Positions 21,321-49,572 of a stretch of 64,000 nucleotides of DNA are shown piece by piece. The stretch is from Longispora albida DSM 44784 (lineage in GTDB: Bacteria > Actinomycetota > Actinomycetes > Mycobacteriales > Micromonosporaceae): positions 124,599-188,598 of the forward strand of contig NZ_KB903836.1 of NCBI RefSeq assembly GCF_000379825.1, read 5' to 3'. The notes beneath the pieces were generated by a model. It was given only the letters and a program-made list of their open reading frames with translations, was not told the origin of the DNA and made no database searches. The stretch's first letter is position 1. Each line of letters opens with the position of its first letter. A program made the position numbers and the translations under genes.

Positions 21321-21545
21321 GTGGCAGGTAAGTTCGAGGTCTACGAGGACAAGTCTGGCAAGTACCGTTTCCGGCTCAAGGCGGGCAACGGGGAGATCAT
21401 CGCGGTCGGCGAGGCGTACGACAACAAGGCCAGCGCGCTGAAGGGCATCGAGTCCATCAAGAACAACGCGATGGAGGCCCGGGTCGTCGACATGACGGCA
21501 GCGAAGGACGTGAACGCCGCCGCGCAGCCGGCCGCGAAGGTGTGA
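21321..21545 (+). CDS. DUF1508/YegP-like small protein
   Basis: 74 residues from GTG 21321, whose product begins MAGKFEVYEDKSGKYRFRLK, the usual beginning of this family. A second in-frame start at 21303 would add WGWLS and is less likely. The protein forms one DUF1508 repeat (RLKAGNGEIIAVGEAYDNKA, then SIKNNA) and an Ala-rich tail. The biochemical role of the family is unknown. The stop overlaps the next GTG start by four bases. Confidence 0.9.
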   Translation: MAGKFEVYEDKSGKYRFRLKAGNGEIIAVGEAYDNKASALKGIESIKNNAMEARVVDMTAAKDVNAAAQPAAKV

Positions 21546-23782
21546 CCAGGCAGGACGGACCCCGCCCCGGCGCGGGGTCCGTTCCCTGCGGGCGGCGGGC
21601 CTTCCTCGGCGGCGCGCTGGCCGCAGGGATCGTGACGGCGGCGCCGCGCGGCTGGCTCGACCCGGCCAGCGCGGCTCCGGCCGTGAAGTACGACGCCGAG
21701 CAGTACTGGATCAGGATGTTCGGCGGCGGCAACGGCATCATCTACACCGTCCGCGCCGACGGGGTCCTGTTCTGGTGGCGGCACGCCGGCTGGTTCAGCG
21801 GGGCCTTCGACTGGCTGAACTGCGGCGGGGGCCGGGCCATCGGCACCGGCTGGCAGAACACCATGTGGATCGGCGCGGCGGCCGACGGCTCCATCTTCGC
21901 GCTGCGCGGCAACGGCGAGCTGTGGCGGTACCAGTACGTCACCACCGACCTCAACGAGGGCTTCGGCTTCTGGGCCGACGGCGGCACGCTGCTGGCCACC
22001 GGCTGGGACCAGTTCGACCGGGTCTTCGGCGGGCCCGACGGCATCCTCTACGCGATCGACCACGACGGCATCCTGTTCCGTACCCAGTTCACCGGCGGGG
22101 CGCTCCCGCCGTTGCAGCCGATCGGCAACGGCTGGAACTTCTCCGGCTGGGTCGCGGCCGACTCCGGTGGCGTGATCTACGCGGAGATGCTGGTCGGGCT
22201 CGCCTGGTTCCGGTACAGCGGGGGAGCGTGGGCCAACAACGCCCAGAAGATCATCATCGACGAACGGCCCGGCGGGGTCGGCTACAGCCTGCCGACGCCG
22301 AACATCGAGCTGTTCACCGGGATGGGCGGCACCTTCTACGGCATCCAGCCCGACTTCCAGCACGTCCCGCAGTACGACAACACGCTCAAGTGGTTCCGGC
22401 TGGCCAACCCGCTGACGGTCGCCTCCGACGGCGGTCCGAACTGGGCTGGGTACGACGTCACGGTCGGCACCGGCTGGACGGTGCAGCGGTTCAGCGCGCT
22501 CCAGGGCTACGCGACGCCGCTGAGTGTCGGGAAGGGACAGGTCGCCAGGTTCGCGGTGTCGACAACGTTCGACTCCTTCACGGCGACCGTGCTGCGCTTC
22601 GGCGACTCCTCCGGCGAGGTGCCGGCGGTGTGGGGGCCGCAGACCTTCCCCGGCCAGTTCCAGTTCCTCCAGCCCGGCTACCGGATCGAGGGCTGCGGCT
22701 GGACGGAGAACCTGTCGGTGCCGGTCCCTGTGACCTGGCGCTCCGGCGTGTACGCCGTCGAGGTGACCGGCAAGCACGGGATCAGCCAGCTGCTGCCGTT
22801 CATCGTGAAGCCCGGCAGCCCGCAGGGCCAGTTCATGGTGCTGCTGCCGACGAACACCTACCACGCGTACAACGAGTGGGGCGGGCACGGCCAGTACAGC
22901 GCCGACCTGCTCAAGCAGCGGGTGCTGTCCATGAACCGCCCGATGCCGCTGGGCTTCTTCAACGCCGACCTGTACCTGCTGATGTGGATGGACCGCGAGG
23001 GCCTGACCTTCGACGTCTACGCCGACGCCGACCTCGACGCGAACCCGAGCCTGCCGCAGAGCTACACCGGCCTCGTCCTCGGCTCGCACCCCGAGTACTA
23101 CAGCCCGGCCATGCGGCAGGCCCTGATCACGTACCAGGACTCCGGCGGCAAGATCATCTACTGTGGAGGCAACGGCATCTTCGAGCGGGTCTCCTACAGC
23201 GCCGACCGCAGCCAGGTGATCTTCCGCAGGGCCGACGGCGCCCGTGACCTGTGGGACGACTACGGGCTGCCGGCCTCACAGATCGTCGGCACCAACTACA
23301 ACGCCTGCTCCGACTACACCTGGGGGCCGTACAAGGTCACGCAGCAGCACCCGCTGCTCACCGGTACCGGGCTGAACGTCGGCGACACCTTCGGCGCCTT
23401 CGGCTACAACGGCCCGGCCAGCGGGCTGGAGACCGACAACCTGCTGGGTGGCGACGGCGAGGCGTTCCCCGAAGAGATCTTCGCGGTCGGCGCGCACGGC
23501 TGCGCCTCGGGCGGGGCCGTGATGTGCCTGGTGCAGAAGGGCAACGGCTGGGCCTTCTCCGCCTCGTCGATGTCGTTCACGGGCGCGCTGCTGACCGACA
23601 CGAAGATGTCGACGATCCTCCGCAATGTCTTCGACCTCGCGCTCAACGAGAGCACGGCCCTGCCGCCGAGCCCGGCGCTCGTGCCAGCCCGGCCGGCGAA
23701 ACCCGTCCAGCCCCCGGCCGCGCGCGAAGAGAACGCTCGCTTGTGGCTGGTCAGGAAGCACATTCGCGCGCGTAGGCGCTGA
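21542..23782 (+). CDS. Tat-exported tachylectin-like / N,N-dimethylformamidase beta-like protein
   Basis: 746 residues. The N-terminus has a Tat motif (GRRAFLGGALAAG) and cleaves near PASAAPA. Residues ~50-290 are a tachylectin-2-like beta-propeller with W/G-rich blade repeats (TVRADGVLFWWRHAGW, GNGELWRYQY, AIDHDGILFRTQF). Residues ~320-700 resemble the large (beta) subunit domain of N,N-dimethylformamidase (LLPTNTYHAYNEWGGHGQYS, LVLGSHPEYYSPAMRQAL). I infer a carbohydrate-binding module joined to a hydrolase-like or structural domain; catalysis is unproven. The last 32 bases overlap the 3' end of the convergent LAL gene. Confidence 0.8.
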   Translation: MTRQDGPRPGAGSVPCGRRAFLGGALAAGIVTAAPRGWLDPASAAPAVKYDAEQYWIRMFGGGNGIIYTVRADGVLFWWRHAGWFSGAFDWLNCGGGRAIGTGWQNTMWIGAAADGSIFALRGNGELWRYQYVTTDLNEGFGFWADGGTLLATGWDQFDRVFGGPDGILYAIDHDGILFRTQFTGGALPPLQPIGNGWNFSGWVAADSGGVIYAEMLVGLAWFRYSGGAWANNAQKIIIDERPGGVGYSLPTPNIELFTGMGGTFYGIQPDFQHVPQYDNTLKWFRLANPLTVASDGGPNWAGYDVTVGTGWTVQRFSALQGYATPLSVGKGQVARFAVSTTFDSFTATVLRFGDSSGEVPAVWGPQTFPGQFQFLQPGYRIEGCGWTENLSVPVPVTWRSGVYAVEVTGKHGISQLLPFIVKPGSPQGQFMVLLPTNTYHAYNEWGGHGQYSADLLKQRVLSMNRPMPLGFFNADLYLLMWMDREGLTFDVYADADLDANPSLPQSYTGLVLGSHPEYYSPAMRQALITYQDSGGKIIYCGGNGIFERVSYSADRSQVIFRRADGARDLWDDYGLPASQIVGTNYNACSDYTWGPYKVTQQHPLLTGTGLNVGDTFGAFGYNGPASGLETDNLLGGDGEAFPEEIFAVGAHGCASGGAVMCLVQKGNGWAFSASSMSFTGALLTDTKMSTILRNVFDLALNESTALPPSPALVPARPAKPVQPPAAREENARLWLVRKHIRARRR

Positions 23783-34778: not shown

Positions 34779-35657
34779 ATGGAGGGCATGACCGCACCCT
34801 CCGCCACGGCAGCCCGGGTCAACCCCGGAGCGCTGCTGGCCATCGCCTCGATGAGCCTCGTACAGCTCGGCGCAGCCCTGTCCACCGGCATGTTCGCCAC
34901 GATCGGCCCGGTGGCCACCGCGTGGCTCCGGCTCGCCTGGGCCGGCGTGATCTTCCTGGTGATCGCCCGGCCACGGCTCCGCAGCCTCCGCCGTGCCGAC
35001 CTGTCGGCCGCCGCGATGCTCGGCGTGACCAGCGGCGCGCTGACCGTCCTGTTCTTCGCGGCGATCGAGCGCATCCCGCTGGCGACGGCTGTCGCGATCG
35101 AGTTCCTCGGGCCGCTCGCTGTCGGCCTGTTCAGCAGCTCTGGGCGCGGCCGCAACCGGTGGGGAGCGCTGTGGCCGGTGCTGGCCTTCGGCGGCGTGCT
35201 GCTGGTGACCCAGCCGTGGCAGGGCGGGGCTGACCTGCTCGGGTTCGCCTACGCGGCGGGGGCCGGCACCTGCTGGGCCGTCTACATCCTGCTGACCCAG
35301 CGCGTCGGCGACAACCTGGGTGGCCTGCAGGGGCTGGCCATCTCGATGCCGGTGGCGGCGCTGGCGACCCTGCCGTTCGGGCTGGGCGCGACCGTCGCGC
35401 ACCTGAGCCCCGGCCTGCTGCTGGAGGGCCTCTTCCTCGCGCTGCTGCTGCCCGTCGTCCCGTACGCGCTCGAACTGCTCGCCCTGCGCCGCCTCGACGC
35501 CGCGTCCTTCGGCACTCTCATGAGCCTGGAACCGGCCCTGGCGCTGGTGATCGGGGCCGTCGTGCTCAGCCAGCTCCCGCAGCCGGTCCAGATCGGGGGG
35601 ATCGCGCTCGTGACCGTGGCCGCGATCGCTGTGGCCCGATCCGGACCGCGCGAGTAG
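34779..35657 (+). CDS. EamA-family (DMT superfamily) transporter
   Basis: 292 residues with ten hydrophobic segments and two EamA repeats (SGALTVLFFAAIERIPLATA in the first, PVVPYALELLALRRLDAASF in the second). Family members export amino acids, metabolites or drugs. Start could also be ATG 34788. It is divergent from the LysR gene. It ends seven bases before the convergent ATP-grasp gene, so it might export the product of the neighbouring cluster, but this is speculative. Confidence 0.9.
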   Translation: MEGMTAPSATAARVNPGALLAIASMSLVQLGAALSTGMFATIGPVATAWLRLAWAGVIFLVIARPRLRSLRRADLSAAAMLGVTSGALTVLFFAAIERIPLATAVAIEFLGPLAVGLFSSSGRGRNRWGALWPVLAFGGVLLVTQPWQGGADLLGFAYAAGAGTCWAVYILLTQRVGDNLGGLQGLAISMPVAALATLPFGLGATVAHLSPGLLLEGLFLALLLPVVPYALELLALRRLDAASFGTLMSLEPALALVIGAVVLSQLPQPVQIGGIALVTVAAIAVARSGPRE

Positions 35658-35664
35658 CGAGGAG

Positions 35665-36876
35665 CTACTTGTTGATCAGGAGGGCGGCCTCGGCGGAGTC
35701 GAGCGCCGCCTGGCACTCCTCCGCCGAGCCGGCGACCGCGACCGCGTAGCCGATCCGGCCGTGGCCGCTGCCGTCCGGCGGCGAGACCACCGAGCCGGGG
35801 CGGGCGTAGAGGAACGTGGACACGACGGCCGGGTCCAGTGCCGCCTCGTCGAACCGGATCGACTCGACCACCGTGCCCGGCTGCTCCGGGTGCAGGAACC
35901 GGATGCCGGCCACCCGGCCCAGCCCGCCGCCCAGCACCGGCCGCACTCCGCACGCCGTGTCGCAGGCCGCCAGGCCGATGTCGACGCCGATCGCCTCGAG
36001 CGCCAGGTACGGGATCAGCCCGGAGCCGAGCCGCCCGTTGATCTCGATGATCTTCGGGCCCTCGGCCGTCAGCATGATCTCGGTGTGCGTGACCCCGCTG
36101 GAGTACCCGACGGCCTGGTGCGCCGCCTGGAGGAAGGCGTGCAGTTCGGCGTCGGCCAGCAGCGGGTCGCGGCTGTCGACCATGTGCTGGACCTCGGCGA
36201 AGTACGGCGGGTACCCGGTGGTCTTCCGCGCGACGCACAGCACGGTCAGCTCGCCCTCGAACAGGACACTGTCCACGCTGATCTCTTCGCCGGTGACGCA
36301 CTCCTCGACCAGCGGCCGGAACACGTAGTCGGGCAGCCCGCCCACCTTGTACCCGGTCAGCTGCGTGTACGCCGCCCGGAGCTCCTCCTCGTCGGCGGCC
36401 CTGATCACGCCCATGCTGGCCAGCAGGTCGTTCGGCTTGATCACGACCGGGTACCCGATCGTGGCGGCCGCGGCCACGGCCTGGTCCGCGCCGGACACCG
36501 AGACGGAGCGCGGCTGGGGTACTCCGGCCGCGTCGAGCGCACGCCGGGTCAGGTTCTTCTCGCGGCACCACTGGGCCGCCTGCTGGCCGGCCCCGGGCAG
36601 CCGCAGCCCGTCGGCGATGTGCGCGACCTGGGTGACACGGGCCTCGTCCCACGTGAGGACGCCGCTGACGCCTTCGATGCCGGCCGCGACGGCGAGCGCC
36701 TGGGCGGGGTCACGGGAGTCGTGAATAGTCCACCCGTCGAGATACTCCCGCTCCCAGGAGGGGTCGAGGCTCGACACCAGATGAAGCCGGTACCGGGTGG
36801 ACATCGAGCGGAGGAGGTATTCCCTGGCGTCCTGGGTGCCGGTACGCAGCACCAGTACCAGCGGGCGGTGATCCAT
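35665..36876 (-). CDS. ATP-grasp ligase beside EPQxKD peptide genes
   Basis: 403 residues from ATG 36876, with GAGGT six bases upstream. The N-terminal domain (LVLVLRTGTQDAREYLL) is a preATP-grasp fold. The ATP-grasp domain has PVVIKPNDLLASMGVI as nucleotide-binding loop and TEIMLTAEGPKIIEINGRLG with the metal-binding Glu and Asn. The enzyme class joins a carboxylate to an amine (or hydroxyl) through an acyl phosphate. It resembles the L-amino-acid-ligase/CPS-like branch rather than RimK-like graspetide ligases. Directly upstream on the same strand lie two tiny genes for repeat peptides. I infer that it ligates something to those peptides or cyclises them. Confidence 0.85.
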   Translation of the reverse strand: MDHRPLVLVLRTGTQDAREYLLRSMSTRYRLHLVSSLDPSWEREYLDGWTIHDSRDPAQALAVAAGIEGVSGVLTWDEARVTQVAHIADGLRLPGAGQQAAQWCREKNLTRRALDAAGVPQPRSVSVSGADQAVAAAATIGYPVVIKPNDLLASMGVIRAADEEELRAAYTQLTGYKVGGLPDYVFRPLVEECVTGEEISVDSVLFEGELTVLCVARKTTGYPPYFAEVQHMVDSRDPLLADAELHAFLQAAHQAVGYSSGVTHTEIMLTAEGPKIIEINGRLGSGLIPYLALEAIGVDIGLAACDTACGVRPVLGGGLGRVAGIRFLHPEQPGTVVESIRFDEAALDPAVVSTFLYARPGSVVSPPDGSGHGRIGYAVAVAGSAEECQAALDSAEAALLINK

Positions 36877-36913
36877 GTGTGACCTCTGTGGAGCCGGGTA
36901 CGAAAAAGGGACG

Positions 36914-36943
36914 AAAAAAGCAGGCCCCCTTTCGGGGGCCTGC
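36914..36943 (-). terminator. Rho-independent terminator of the first EPQxKD peptide gene
   Basis: On the minus strand, GCAGGCCCCC pairs perfectly with GGGGGCCTGC (36920-36943) around a GAAA loop, followed by six Ts (36919-36914). It starts 13 bases after the peptide stop and separates the peptide transcript from the ATP-grasp gene. Confidence 0.9.
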
Positions 36944-36956
36944 CCTACTGCTTTAT

Positions 36957-37079
36957 TTAGCGCGCCTCGGGAAGCGGGGCGTCCTTAAGCTGCGGCTCCA
37001 TCTCAAAACCGAGGTCCTTGACCTGCGGCTCAACCTCGCGGAAACCGAGGTCCTTGATCTGAGGCTCAACCTCACGCAT
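36957..37079 (-). CDS. 40-residue EPQxKD repeat peptide A (candidate precursor)
   Basis: Starts at ATG 37079; GAAGGG lies nine bases upstream, whereas an in-frame ATG three codons earlier has none. The peptide reads MREVEPQIKDLGF, then REVEPQVKDLGF, then EMEPQLKD and the tail APLPEAR. It therefore carries three EPQ(I/V/L)KD units, about 11-12 residues apart. No signal peptide, Cys, Ser or Thr is present; the chemistry available is Lys amines with Glu/Asp carboxylates and the C-terminus. It lies between a dedicated promoter and terminator, next to an ATP-grasp gene. I infer a modified or carrier peptide. Confidence 0.8.
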   Translation of the reverse strand: MREVEPQIKDLGFREVEPQVKDLGFEMEPQLKDAPLPEAR

Positions 37080-37109
37080 AACGATCATCCCTTCTATGAT
37101 CGAGCTTTT

Positions 37110-37151
37110 CCTTACCCCGTAAGGATTAGGCTCGGCCCCGCCTCGTGTCAA
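37110..37151 (-). promoter_or_regulatory. Promoter and dyad for peptide A
   Basis: On the minus strand TTGACA (37151-37146), a 17-base spacer and TAATCC (37128-37123) form a -35/-10 pair. The dyad CCTTAC-N3-GTAAGG (37110-37124) overlaps the -10 end and the expected start point. The same arrangement precedes peptide B. Confidence 0.75.
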
Positions 37152-37364
37152 GCGCCGGCTGTGAAGAGATTTCGCGGCGGTGGCGAACTGTCCTTTTTAG
37201 ACTTGTGATGCGCCGATCGCCACGCGCGCAGCCGTTTCTTGACGACTTTCCTGGTACCGGTAGTGGCACCTTTACCGCCAACTCGGCCCCATCCGGGCCA
37301 GCGGGGAGCCGCGCGCCCGGCTGGCCAGGGCGGAAGGGGGCGGATACGGCGGGAATGGGGGACG

Positions 37365-37396
37365 AAAAAGGCAGGCCCTCCATCGGGAGAGCCTGC
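37365..37396 (-). terminator. Rho-independent terminator of peptide B gene
   Basis: On the minus strand GCAGGC pairs with GCCTGC plus three inner base pairs (37371-37396), followed by CTTTTT-type T-run (37369-37365). Sequence and position copy the terminator of peptide A. Confidence 0.85.
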
Positions 37397-37409
37397 CCTG
37401 CTGCTTTAT

Positions 37410-37508
37410 TTAGCGCGCTTCGGGAAGCGGGGCGTCCTTGATCTGCGGCTCCGCCTCGAAGCGGAGCTGGGCGACCTGGTCCTTGATCTGGGGCTCGACC
37501 TCACGCAT
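37410..37508 (-). CDS. 32-residue EPQIKD repeat peptide B (candidate precursor)
   Basis: Starts at ATG 37508 behind GAAGGG and encodes MREVEPQIKDQVAQLRFEAE, then PQIKDAPLPEAR. It shares its first ten residues and the C-terminal EPQ-KDAPLPEAR block with peptide A but has two rather than three EPQxKD units. Leader, promoter, terminator and coding ends are near-identical to those of peptide A, so the whole transcription unit was duplicated. It is located between peptide A and the acyl-adenylating ligase gene. Confidence 0.8.
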   Translation of the reverse strand: MREVEPQIKDQVAQLRFEAEPQIKDAPLPEAR

Positions 37509-37536
37509 GGCGATCATCCCTTCTATGATCGGAATT

Positions 37537-37578
37537 CCTTACCTGGTAAGGATTAAGCCGGAGCCATCCTCCTGTCAA
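37537..37578 (-). promoter_or_regulatory. Promoter and dyad for peptide B
   Basis: Minus-strand TTGACA (37578-37573), a 17-base spacer and TAATCC (37555-37550), then the dyad CCTTAC-CAG-GTAAGG (37537-37551). Spacing and sequence equal those of peptide A's promoter. Confidence 0.75.
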
Positions 37579-37597
37579 GCGTCGACGCCAGTCGATT

Positions 37598-39112
37598 TCA
37601 CGCGGCCGGAGTGCTGTCCTTTCCGGCTTCCTGGCTCGCCGCCCGCCAGGCGCGCAGCTGCTTCTTGTCGACCTTCCCGGTACCGGTCAGCGGCAGCTCG
37701 GCGACGAACTCCACCTCCCGGGGCGCCCACGTCCCGTTGAGCCTGCCCGCCACGAACTCGCGCAGCTCCTCTGGCGTCGCCGAAGCCCCGGCCGCCGGGA
37801 CGACGTAGGCGTGCACCACCTCGCCGAACTCGGCACTCGGCACCCCGACGACCGCGGCGGCGTGCACGGCCGGGTGGGCGGCCAGCGCGTCCTCGACCGG
37901 CCGGGCGTACACGTTCGTCGAGCCCCAGCCGGTGAGGATCATGTCCTTGACCCGGTCGAGCAGGAAGAGATTGCCGTCCGGTGCCACGTACCCGAAGTCA
38001 CCCGTCCGCAGCCAGCCGTCCACGATGGTCTCGGCGGTCAGCTCCGGCTGCCCCCAGTACCCCGACATCATCACGCCGCCGCGCAGCCACACCTCGCCCG
38101 GCTCGCCGGCCGGCAGCTGCTGGCCCTCCGGCGAGCGGACCTCCAGCTGGAGGTCGCCGTACGGCTGGCCGACGGAGCCGAGGACGACCGGGTCGGCGGG
38201 GATGCCGGGGTAGGCGGCGATGATCGGGGCCTCGCTCATCCCGTACGCGGGCCGCATGACCGGGCCGAAGCGCTCGATCGCCTGCTGGAGCCTGCTCGCG
38301 GCCACCGGCGCGCCGCCGACGTTGACCCGCCTGAGGCTGGTGCAGTCGGCTTCGGCGGTCAGCGGGTGGTCGAGCAGGAAGTACAGCAGGGGCGGGGTGA
38401 GGAGCGTGTCGGTGATGCGCTCCTTCGCGATGAGGCCGAAGAACTCGGCCGTCACGAACTTGCTGACGGTGTAGTACGTCCCGCCGGTCAGCATGGCCAT
38501 GTGCGCGGGCATCTGGGTGCTCATCACCCAGTACCCGGCGAGCGACAGGTGTTTCATCGCGTGCTCGCCGGAGGCCTTGTAGTGCCGGGCGAAGGCGAGC
38601 GCGGTGTTGAAGAACTTCTCACCGTGCAGCACGAGTTTCGGATCGCCGGTCGTGCCGCTCGTCTGGTACAGCGCCTGCGGCTCGGTCGTCACGCCCTCCG
38701 GCAGCCCGGCAGGAGCGTGCGCGGCCAGCTCGTGCAGCCTGTAGGTCGGCAGGCCACTGGCTCCGGCCATCTCGGAACCGAGTGCGCCAGCCGCGTGCTC
38801 GTCGTAGACGAATACGTCCGCACCGGCCCGTACGAGAAAACTGTCCTGAAAGGATCGGGGGGCGTTGGGTGCGATCCAGGCGATCCGGCCACCCAGCAAA
38901 TGCACCGCGAATTGCAGCATCACGGCCTCTGGCGCGGTGCTCGCCAGCACACCGACTGCGACTCCCGGGTTGAACTGGCTGGCTATGCCAAGAATGCCAT
39001 CGTGCAGCTCCCGGAAGGTGACCCGCCGGTCATCCGCGACGATCGCCTCGGCGTCACCGTATCCGGCGAACAGCTCCAGCACGTGCCGGACGTAATTCTC
39101 GCGCTCCATCAT
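37598..39112 (-). CDS. Class I adenylate-forming ligase (acyl-CoA synthetase-like)
   Basis: 504 residues. Adenylation motifs occur in order: YQTSGTTGDPKLVLHG (A3), YGMSEAP (A5), WLRTGDFGYVAPDG (A7), DRVKDMILTGWGSTNVYARP (A8) and PLTGTGKVDKKQLR (A10 with catalytic Lys). It activates a carboxylic acid as an acyl-AMP for transfer to CoA or an amine. A position beside the two EPQxKD peptide genes and the ATP-grasp gene suggests that it supplies an acyl group to the same pathway; this is inference. Start could be ATG 39112 or 39109. It ends 19 bases before the peptide B promoter. Confidence 0.88.
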   Translation of the reverse strand: MMERENYVRHVLELFAGYGDAEAIVADDRRVTFRELHDGILGIASQFNPGVAVGVLASTAPEAVMLQFAVHLLGGRIAWIAPNAPRSFQDSFLVRAGADVFVYDEHAAGALGSEMAGASGLPTYRLHELAAHAPAGLPEGVTTEPQALYQTSGTTGDPKLVLHGEKFFNTALAFARHYKASGEHAMKHLSLAGYWVMSTQMPAHMAMLTGGTYYTVSKFVTAEFFGLIAKERITDTLLTPPLLYFLLDHPLTAEADCTSLRRVNVGGAPVAASRLQQAIERFGPVMRPAYGMSEAPIIAAYPGIPADPVVLGSVGQPYGDLQLEVRSPEGQQLPAGEPGEVWLRGGVMMSGYWGQPELTAETIVDGWLRTGDFGYVAPDGNLFLLDRVKDMILTGWGSTNVYARPVEDALAAHPAVHAAAVVGVPSAEFGEVVHAYVVPAAGASATPEELREFVAGRLNGTWAPREVEFVAELPLTGTGKVDKKQLRAWRAASQEAGKDSTPAA

Positions 39113-48451: not shown

Positions 48452-48817
48452 TCAGATCTCGACGAGGCGGGTGACGAGGCGGGCCAGGTCGGCCGCCGGG
48501 TCGGCTGTCAGTCCGGTGTGGACGGGGCCGGTCCGCAGGATCGTGCTGCGGGGCGCGGTCAGCCAGCCGAAACGTTTCCCGAGGTCCAGCTCGGCGGACG
48601 GGCCGCTCGTGCAGCCGGACCGGTACGCGTCCAGCGCCCCGCGTACCCCGTCGATGTCGACCGCCGGGTCGAGCGCGAGCAGCCGGGCCTCGTCGACGTG
48701 CAGGCCGACGTCGAGGAAATCGAGGGCCTGGCAGTACAGGATCACGCCGACGTTGACGCACTCGTCCCGCTCGATCCGGGGCACGAGCTTGACCAGGGCG
48801 TAGGAGAAGGACTTCAC
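48452..48817 (-). CDS. DUF3037 protein paired with HipA-like kinase
   Basis: 121 residues starting MKSFSYALVKLVPRIERDEC, the family's standard beginning, followed by NVGVILYC. DUF3037 proteins have no known activity. Its ATG overlaps the stop of the HipA-like kinase gene by four bases. A bicistronic pair of this kind is often found in actinomycetes and proteobacteria. Confidence 0.9.
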   Translation of the reverse strand: MKSFSYALVKLVPRIERDECVNVGVILYCQALDFLDVGLHVDEARLLALDPAVDIDGVRGALDAYRSGCTSGPSAELDLGKRFGWLTAPRSTILRTGPVHTGLTADPAADLARLVTRLVEI

Positions 48818-49572
48818 GAGCGGCCCTCCGGCAGCCAGGAGTCAGCGGCGGCCAGGCGGGCGCCGAGGTGACTGACGTAGGCGGCCCGGACCTCGTCCGG
48901 TGAGCCGAAACCGGGCTCGTCCGCCAGCCACTCGTCGGGGATCAGCGCCGTCACCTCGCGCAGCAGGTCCGGGGTGACCTGCGGGGCCAGGGCCGCGTGC
49001 GTGCCGGCCATGTCCCGGGCGAAGGGCGCGAGCACGTGGTCGTCCCACTTGTAGGACCGGCCGACGTAGCTGGCGGCGCGGGGCCAGTTGTGGTGGAAGT
49101 ACAGCGAGGCGCCGTGGTCGATCAGCCACAGCTCCTTGTGCCAGACCAGCATGTTGGGGTTGCGCCAGCTGCGGTCGACGTTCTCGATCAGCGCGTCGAA
49201 CCACAGGACCCTGGCCGCCAGGGCCGGGTCGGGGCTGAATCCGGCCGGGTCGAAGCCGAGGGCGCCGGGCAGGAAGTCCATGCCCAGGTTGTCGCCGGGG
49301 CTGGCCTTGAGCAGGTGCTGGATCTCGGGGTCGGGCTCGCCGGGCGCGATGGCCGGGTCGAGCTCCGCGAGGACCAGGTCCGGGACGCGCAGTCCCAGCC
49401 GCCGGGCCAGCTCGCCGCCGATGATCTCGGCGGCGAGGGCCTTGGGGCCCTGACCGGCCCCGCGGAACTTCACGACATAGGTGCCGAGGTCGTCGGCTTC
49501 CAGCAGGCCGGGTAGTGAGCCGCCCTCGCGGAGCGGCGTCACGTACCGGATGGCAGTCACTTTGGGGAGCAC
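48814..49572 (-). CDS. HipA-like kinase-fold protein
   Basis: 252 residues, about half the length of E. coli HipA. The N-terminal VVKFRGAGQGPKALAAEII holds the ATP lysine. The catalytic-loop region DALIENVDRSWRNPNML and the metal-binding LIDHGASL (DHG in place of DFG) are present. Such short HipA-like proteins lack the N-subdomain 1 and the HipB partner. The coupled DUF3037 protein may be its partner or substrate. Confidence 0.85.
   Translation of the reverse strand: MLPKVTAIRYVTPLREGGSLPGLLEADDLGTYVVKFRGAGQGPKALAAEIIGGELARRLGLRVPDLVLAELDPAIAPGEPDPEIQHLLKASPGDNLGMDFLPGALGFDPAGFSPDPALAARVLWFDALIENVDRSWRNPNMLVWHKELWLIDHGASLYFHHNWPRAASYVGRSYKWDDHVLAPFARDMAGTHAALAPQVTPDLLREVTALIPDEWLADEPGFGSPDEVRAAYVSHLGARLAAADSWLPEGRS

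Follow-up and report, generated by a model that had tools for sequence, protein, structure and literature searches.

What could two very small peptides be made for when their genes lie between that of an ATP-grasp ligase and that of a class I adenylate-forming ligase? The question is raised by a stretch of 64,000 nucleotides from Longispora albida DSM 44784 (positions 124,599 to 188,598 of contig NZ_KB903836.1; hereafter the window). A reading of this DNA made without database searches (the sequence-only reading) had placed two micro-genes of 40 and 32 amino acids (aa) there on the minus strand, and both frames are indeed present. Along that strand, from 39112 to 35665, the order is the adenylate-forming ligase gene (39112-37598; 504 aa; AMP-binding and AMP-binding_C domains), micro-peptide gene B (37508-37410; 32 aa; MREVEPQIKDQVAQLRFEAEPQIKDAPLPEAR), micro-peptide gene A (37079-36957; 40 aa; MREVEPQIKDLGFREVEPQVKDLGFEMEPQLKDAPLPEAR) and the ATP-grasp ligase gene (36876-35665; 403 aa). 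The sequences indicate that both micro-genes are real and that they belong to a family of multi-unit micro-peptides that is confined to one lineage and associated with a single clade of ATP-grasp enzymes of the L-amino acid ligase (LAL) type. Our favored reading, to which we give somewhat less than an even chance, is that A and B are multi-core precursors of a new family resembling ribosomally synthesized and post-translationally modified peptides (RiPPs), the released units being capped at the N-terminus by the LAL-type ATP-grasp enzyme.

Are the two frames genes at all? Each sits in a cassette made up of a promoter-like pair, a palindrome, an AGAAGGG Shine-Dalgarno site, the frame and a hairpin, all on the minus strand. 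A by-eye reading places the promoter-like TTGACA-17-TAATCC of A at 37123..37151 and that of B at 37550..37578; promoter activity would be expected at both cassettes, and a consensus promoter scan reported none at these pairs. The palindrome of A (CCTTACGGGGTAAGG; 37110..37124), which has its counterpart in B (CCTTACCAGGTAAGG; 37537..37551), is near the expected transcription start and may be operator-like or an RNA hairpin. Adjoining the start codon of A is an inverted repeat, CGATCAT-AGAAGGG-ATGATCG (37082..37102), with the Shine-Dalgarno site in its loop and a letter-identical copy at 37511-37531; in predicted RNA folds A forms this repeat, whereas the minimum-energy fold of B lacks it. Terminator-like hairpins lie 3' of both frames, one between A and the ATP-grasp gene (36914..36946; 13 pairs, T6 with three in the stem; also reported by a scan) and one behind B (37365..37399; 14 pairs, T5 with two in the stem; not reported by the scan).

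The two cassettes are a diverged tandem duplication, some 430-450 bp apart, which spans a relic of the ligase 3' end, the promoter region, the peptide and the hairpin; the relic, a remnant of the duplication (37168..37261, minus strand), retains 72% identity to 37594-37687. A and B have their last nine residues, KDAPLPEAR, in common. Their aligned parts differ at 8 nucleotides with 2 amino acid changes, against 6.0 expected (P = 0.0016), and A differs from its homologue in the other genome of the genus examined (G001) at 18 nucleotides with 8 amino acid changes, against 12.5 expected (P = 0.0045), both under a simple uniform-mutation model with segments aligned by hand. This codon-level constraint points to selection on the amino acids of the micro-peptides. 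Chance open frames are thus ruled out by the tandem duplication, the codon test and conservation across species, a homologue being located upstream of the ATP-grasp gene of G001.

Related peptides beside ATP-grasp genes, which the sequence-only reading had suggested looking for in related genomes, were found at 7 loci, distributed over 5 genomes that belong to one family. With peptide A as the query, 354 family genomes yielded the window's two genes, the G001 homologue (E = 2e-5), just 5' of an ATP-grasp gene 62% identical to that of the window, and two weak matches inside long frames (E = 0.03 and 0.04). This query missed a paralogous locus in the window's own genome (L011), whose peptide is MTRREVDPSTSDAKFEVEVREVAFEVEVREVAL. 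A second G001 locus (L012) has two micro-genes, MARREVTPGSFELNFEVNPGTFDVNFEVSGSVALNFEVEPQAAL and MARFEVDPSGALTKFSEVDPSGALTKFSEVDPSGALTKFSEVSPGRTLSL, of which L012b repeats identical units (SEVDPSGALTKF); the L012a peptide, used as a query, matched only itself, and neither it nor peptide A retrieved the other subfamilies. Divergent peptides can therefore escape detection. Three genomes of another genus (L027, L028 and L029) encode REVA-repeat peptides, MEVAQREVAREVAREV..., which have in common with L011 an REV element, repeated there also, but lack Phe and Pro. At all seven positive loci, the window included, the peptide gene lies 180-260 nucleotides (nt) 5' of the ATP-grasp start on the same strand.

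The peptides are built from units. The EPQxKD unit described in the sequence-only reading is present in the window peptides, but it proves to be the window-specific part of a wider plan, mostly (R/S/F)-E-V-(D/E/N)-P-x(n)-F with 8-16 residues per unit. Peptide A is divided into REVEPQIKDLGF, REVEPQVKDLGF and EMEPQLKDAPLPEAR, and peptide B into REVEPQIKDQVAQLRF and EAEPQIKDAPLPEAR. In the six peptides of the window's genus, Glu is followed mostly by Val (also by Ile, Met, Ala, Ser or Asp), usually then by an acidic residue and Pro, with Phe before the next unit. Phe occupies 13 of 13 internal boundaries in the six Phe-bearing peptides, the boundaries having been drawn after looking, and Glu is present in every unit drawn. 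In the peptides of this genus, 14 of 16 Phe residues are followed by E or xE, whereas shuffled sequences have a mean of 4.4 and none of 20,000 shuffles reaches 14. The absence of Cys, Ser and Thr from A and B, as previously reported, was confirmed in both translations.

How far does the family extend? A motif scan, with the motif taken from the positives, sought frames of 18-80 aa with a Shine-Dalgarno site and at least 3 unit motifs. It recovers the peptides at 6 of the 7 positive loci, L010 falling short of three motif matches, and was positive at none of 137 other ATP-grasp loci (28 family, 80 genome_contigs and 29 order), some of which are duplicates of each other or from the same family. 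The family sample comprised 35 loci (L009-L043) read with 1.5-kb flanks, the genome_contigs sample 80 loci from at least 331 confirmed ATP-grasp relatives, and the order sample 29 loci besides the paralogue, from 51 places across 397 genomes; the latter two, wider samples added no further peptide. A reading, with a narrow filter, of 11 loci around additional adenylate-forming ligase copies showed none either; of these loci, L004 and L135 overlap each other, and L193 corresponds to the G001 locus, with its peptide just beyond the stretch read. The literature searched, which covered few subscription papers, holds no description of the family, and the peptide strings were unmatched in it. A separate observation comes from one genome only (G076), in which an 11-residue frame with a Shine-Dalgarno site, MDYEEIAADKA (L128:11058-11093), is flanked by an adenylate-forming gene and by an ATP-grasp gene belonging to the same clade; tentatively, this is perhaps a minimal version of the same system.

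If the micro-genes are real, are they genes for a product or for control of the locus? One form of control would be leader-peptide attenuation, in which the short frame and the hairpin govern read-through into the ATP-grasp gene. A short frame followed by a strong hairpin does precede the enzyme gene at 7 of 7 loci: TTGAC stands 5' of the frame in all nine cassettes of these loci, as do a Shine-Dalgarno site, micro-ORF (open reading frame) and hairpin, and the 90 nt after each stop fold into a hairpin of -31 to -54 kcal/mol. However, only in the window and L010 does the hairpin have a clear T run after it, and the hairpins of the other loci may act otherwise than as terminators. In the six cassettes, out of nine, that were tested for it (two with a crudely cut arm), pairing between the coding sequence and the hairpin's 5' arm is no stronger than that of shuffled sequence (within 0.5 standard deviations, or weaker), and the codon test indicates selection on the amino acids. 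A's own cassette follows B and its hairpin, so B cannot lead the ATP-grasp gene in this way; that further cassettes lie between B or L012a and the ATP-grasp gene fits a product rather than a leader. We consider attenuation highly improbable.

Alternatively, the micro-peptide could be a separate signaling or regulatory peptide of the locus and not a substrate of the ATP-grasp enzyme. Both cassettes come with their own promoter-like and hairpin elements, a LysR gene is nearby, and relatives of the ATP-grasp enzyme exist without a peptide. The palindrome, too, is restricted to the two peptide cassettes: exact matches to CCTTACnnGGTAAGG occur at these two sites only across the whole 6.8-Mb assembly, and within the window the two sites compare with 0.30 matches expected. 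Against this, the peptide gene lies directly 5' of the ATP-grasp gene on the same strand at every one of the seven loci, and near-identical tandem cores are typical of precursors. In G001, the adenylate-forming ligase (66-68% identical) is on the opposite strand; this gene has moved while the peptide is still beside the ATP-grasp gene, and hence the association survived rearrangement. A signaling role thus seems unlikely to us.

A precursor of some kind is the better fit, and the enzyme beside it bears on which kind. L-amino acid ligases normally phosphorylate the carboxylate of one amino acid, which is then attacked by the amine of a second. In the window protein, Pfam detects ATP-grasp_4 at 71.3 bits (cut-off, 27) and LAL_C2 at 50 bits (cut-off, 29.4), and searches of PDB sequences return the L-amino acid ligases BL00235 and BacD as the best solved relatives. 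An AlphaFold model (pLDDT, 94) was compared by Foldseek and VIA, with 3vot as the best match (3vot_A: Z of 37.5, 387 residues aligned, root mean square deviation of 3.2); the VIA Z values were 37.5 for BL00235, 34.6 for BacD and 31.6 for RizA, with phosphoribosylglycinamide synthetase also in the top rows. BL00235, BacD and RizA rank with the best whole-chain matches, by sequence as well as by fold, but are 16-22% identical to the window protein, and no ribosomal peptide partner of these three enzymes appears in the literature examined. E266, E278, N280 and R282, which we take to be the catalytic residues, are invariant in 39 homologues. By sequence and model, the enzyme is thus of the L-amino acid ligase type and is predicted to catalyze ATP-dependent condensation of amino acids. 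The earlier view that it is not a RimK-type graspetide ligase holds: rimK_fam scores 32.6 bits against a cut-off of 143.4, LAL_C2 is above its cut-off, and the best fold is that of BL00235.

These properties bear on a graspetide-like alternative, in which the ATP-grasp enzyme would activate the conserved Glu of each unit, or link Glu to Lys, to give cross-links or amino acid conjugates. Microviridin-type graspetides likewise have a small Glu/Asp/Lys-rich precursor beside an ATP-grasp gene, some with repeated cores, and their ATP-grasp enzymes perform side-chain chemistry of this type (PMC8939145). The peptides described here are Glu-rich, in the window also Lys-rich, and the Glu conserved in every unit keeps side-chain activation as a rival. 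The ATP-grasp family, however, is not of the RimK/MdnC type but LAL type by sequence and fold, and the LAL family activates free amino acids. The units also have no conserved Lys, Ser or Thr donor. The sequence-only reading had listed side-chain lactams, with Lys next to Glu or Asp, among its options, but no Lys occurs in the L012a peptide, in the REVA peptides or in two of the three L011 units; with Lys not conserved among the relatives, such lactams are unlikely to be the general chemistry. Side-chain chemistry as a whole appears quite unlikely.

It is also conceivable that the peptide is a scaffold, amino acids or acids being added to the C-terminus of the precursor, modified and cut off. 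The alternative named in the sequence-only reading, a carrier peptide on which building blocks grow, is conceivable too. The PEARL pathways (e.g., ammosamide) similarly combine a small peptide with dedicated ligases (PMC12424672). In the window, A and B end alike in KDAPLPEAR, and an adenylate-forming ligase and an ATP-grasp enzyme together could extend a carboxylate. An attachment end should be kept, whereas the C-termini vary over the family (PEAR, AAAA, VAL, AAL, LSL and VAR), which sets these peptides apart from the PEARL type; nor does a scaffold give the internal repeats a role. No LanB-like PEARL-type gene was recognized among the neighbors scanned, which make up part of each locus only. 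A scaffold of this type is, in our view, very doubtful.

What the sequences show are the genes, the anatomy of their cassettes, the unit plan, its conservation, and the family and clade of the enzyme; the steps of the favored reading, N-terminal capping of released cores, are inferred and would run as follows. A and B would each be a chain of units, with Phe marking the boundaries. Phe at these positions suggests release by an endopeptidase, and a protease encoded elsewhere would free the units there. The ATP-grasp enzyme would act on a small amino acid, phosphorylating its carboxylate and then attaching it to the free N-terminus of the released peptide; at L011 and L012, the added amino acid would plausibly be (4-hydroxy)phenylglycine. 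For the adenylate-forming ligase, the role would be to activate an acid or to provide a further cap, and an EamA protein would export the product. Labor would then be divided between ribosome and ligase in the manner of pheganomycin, the ligase in this case belonging to a different ATP-grasp family.

The parallel with pheganomycin (the 'guanidinotides', made with PGM1 and Pgm2) extends to several features. PGM1 ligates a nonproteinogenic phenylglycine-type acid and a small core peptide (PMC8939145), Pgm2 carries two cores (PMC9484694), and Pgm1 homologues have been reported with biarylitide precursors in 47 clusters (PMC13417212). A ribosomal multi-core peptide and an ATP-grasp ligase, here known from sequence alone, are common to both systems, and phenylglycine-type genes are present at the paralogous loci L011 and L012. 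The ligase described here differs in having LAL_C2 without a PGM1_C hit, and the precursors are set beside Pgm2 by description. In the ATP-grasp protein, PGM1_C gave no Pfam hit at E up to 0.001, PF18105 matched nowhere in the window's genome, and PGM1 is missing among the sequence and fold matches listed; a distant relation to PGM1 may nevertheless exist. No Pgm2-like peptide was recognized at 20 PGM1_C loci, the 1.5-kb flanks around the domain being mostly the gene itself, and neither an amidinotransferase nor a type III polyketide synthase is among the genes scanned here.

Several observations weigh against N-terminal capping. Known L-amino acid ligases mostly produce dipeptides. In a tree of 39 homologues, L037 joins Winogradskya consettensis with a branch of zero length, so that the family is probably Micromonosporaceae. 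All peptide loci and the tentative 11-mer locus L016 fall into one 11-row clade of this tree (support, 100/98), but its other members (L017, L019 and L022) are without a nearby peptide, and L018-L025, which grouped with peptide-less members in a preliminary tree, have none within 1.5 kb either. This enzyme type can therefore work without a peptide, which argues against an obligate partnership; the partnership was either ancestral and then lost in the peptide-less members or gained more than once. The distribution of the peptides is narrow. The L029 peptide, a weak query that finds its relative L028 at E = 0.02, matched 3 of 15 genomes, all already known. The REVA peptides, lacking Phe and Pro, stand outside the unit plan, and the unit was defined after looking and is thus a description rather than an independent test. 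Members of the adenylate-forming ligase family are also present at other sites in 14 of the 20 genomes searched, many of these sites having no peptide nearby. No protease is found among the 10 window genes scanned around the system, and hydroxyphenylglycine-type genes are missing from those scanned near the window copy and near the G001 locus (L044).

The peptide-less members show features of their own. By eye, an SGNH-hydrolase-like sequence lies 5' of several peptide-less ATP-grasp genes, and at L129 the genes that flank the REVA peptide and its ATP-grasp gene are an SGNH hydrolase gene and one of the sulfotransferase type. A sulfotransferase-type gene adjoins the ATP-grasp gene both at this locus, with a micro-peptide (L129:8425-9288; Pfam), and at L132 without one (L132:11259-12107; similarity of the first residues only).

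What else accompanies the peptide and its ligase? Homologues of the adenylate-forming ligase are found near the peptide and ATP-grasp loci of the same subclade, being adjacent to or within 20 kb of the ATP-grasp gene at 5 of 5 loci of the subclade that holds the window enzyme (P0001) and L016: the window, L044, L045 (59% identity), G001 near 8.16 Mb (60%) and L128 (48-51%). An EamA/RhtA-like exporter gene (34779..35657, plus strand), convergent with the ATP-grasp gene, possibly belongs to the system; the G001 locus has an EamA gene too (L044:8440-9426). Also encoded near the window system are a LysR regulator, an FMN reductase and a GNAT protein. Elsewhere in the window are a HipA-like kinase gene (48814-49572; Pfam HipA_2) with a small frame adjoining it (48452-48817) and a gene whose product combines a tachylectin domain with a dimethylformamidase-like domain at the C-terminus (21542-23782).

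The trio of an HPPD-family dioxygenase, an FMN-dependent dehydrogenase and an aminotransferase is the pattern of 4-hydroxyphenylglycine biosynthesis. Near L011 are an HPPD-family dioxygenase gene, with a model that does not separate hydroxymandelate synthase from HPPD, an FMN hydroxyacid oxidase-type gene (FMN-dependent dehydrogenase) and an aminotransferase gene; beside L012 are an FMN-dependent dehydrogenase and an aminotransferase gene. For the window copy, the other locus in its genome could be the supplier of hydroxyphenylglycine. Two related biosynthetic loci, one in the window's genome (L045 and L046; G000:C13:575000-609000) and one in G001 (L127; G001:C1:8133000-8152999), contain adenylate-forming enzymes, ketosynthases (scanned in L127 only), hydroxyphenylglycine-type genes, an ATP-grasp gene and multi-unit micro-peptides, and from their gene content they look like hybrid clusters. 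L046 also encodes a phosphopantetheinyl transferase and two small proteins without a Pfam match. In L127, a gene for an FxsB-family cyclophane-forming radical SAM peptide maturase (L127:1343-2539) lies approximately 6.7 kb from the first micro-peptide of the G001 locus and is probably a separate RiPP system.

In summary, we describe peptides that would belong to the ribosome-plus-ATP-grasp-ligase kind, with a fair chance of forming a class of their own. A fuller version of this proposal is a new RiPP class of Micromonosporaceae-like actinobacteria in which cores of the form EV(D/E)P...F, cut at Phe, are capped N-terminally with a free amino acid, at some loci hydroxyphenylglycine, by an LAL-type ATP-grasp enzyme; a family known for dipeptides would thus have been recruited to ribosomal peptides independently of PGM1, and the adenylate-forming partner would add a further acyl cap; we regard this as possible but distinctly doubtful. 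The shared unit plan provides a search motif for micro-genes that are likely to be missed by routine annotation. As L-amino acid ligases are compact amide-forming enzymes, a natural one that acted on peptides of 8-16 residues would serve well as a tool for adding noncanonical residues as N-terminal caps. If the proposal is true, peptide assembly by ribosome plus ligase, as known from PGM1, would have arisen in a second ATP-grasp family.

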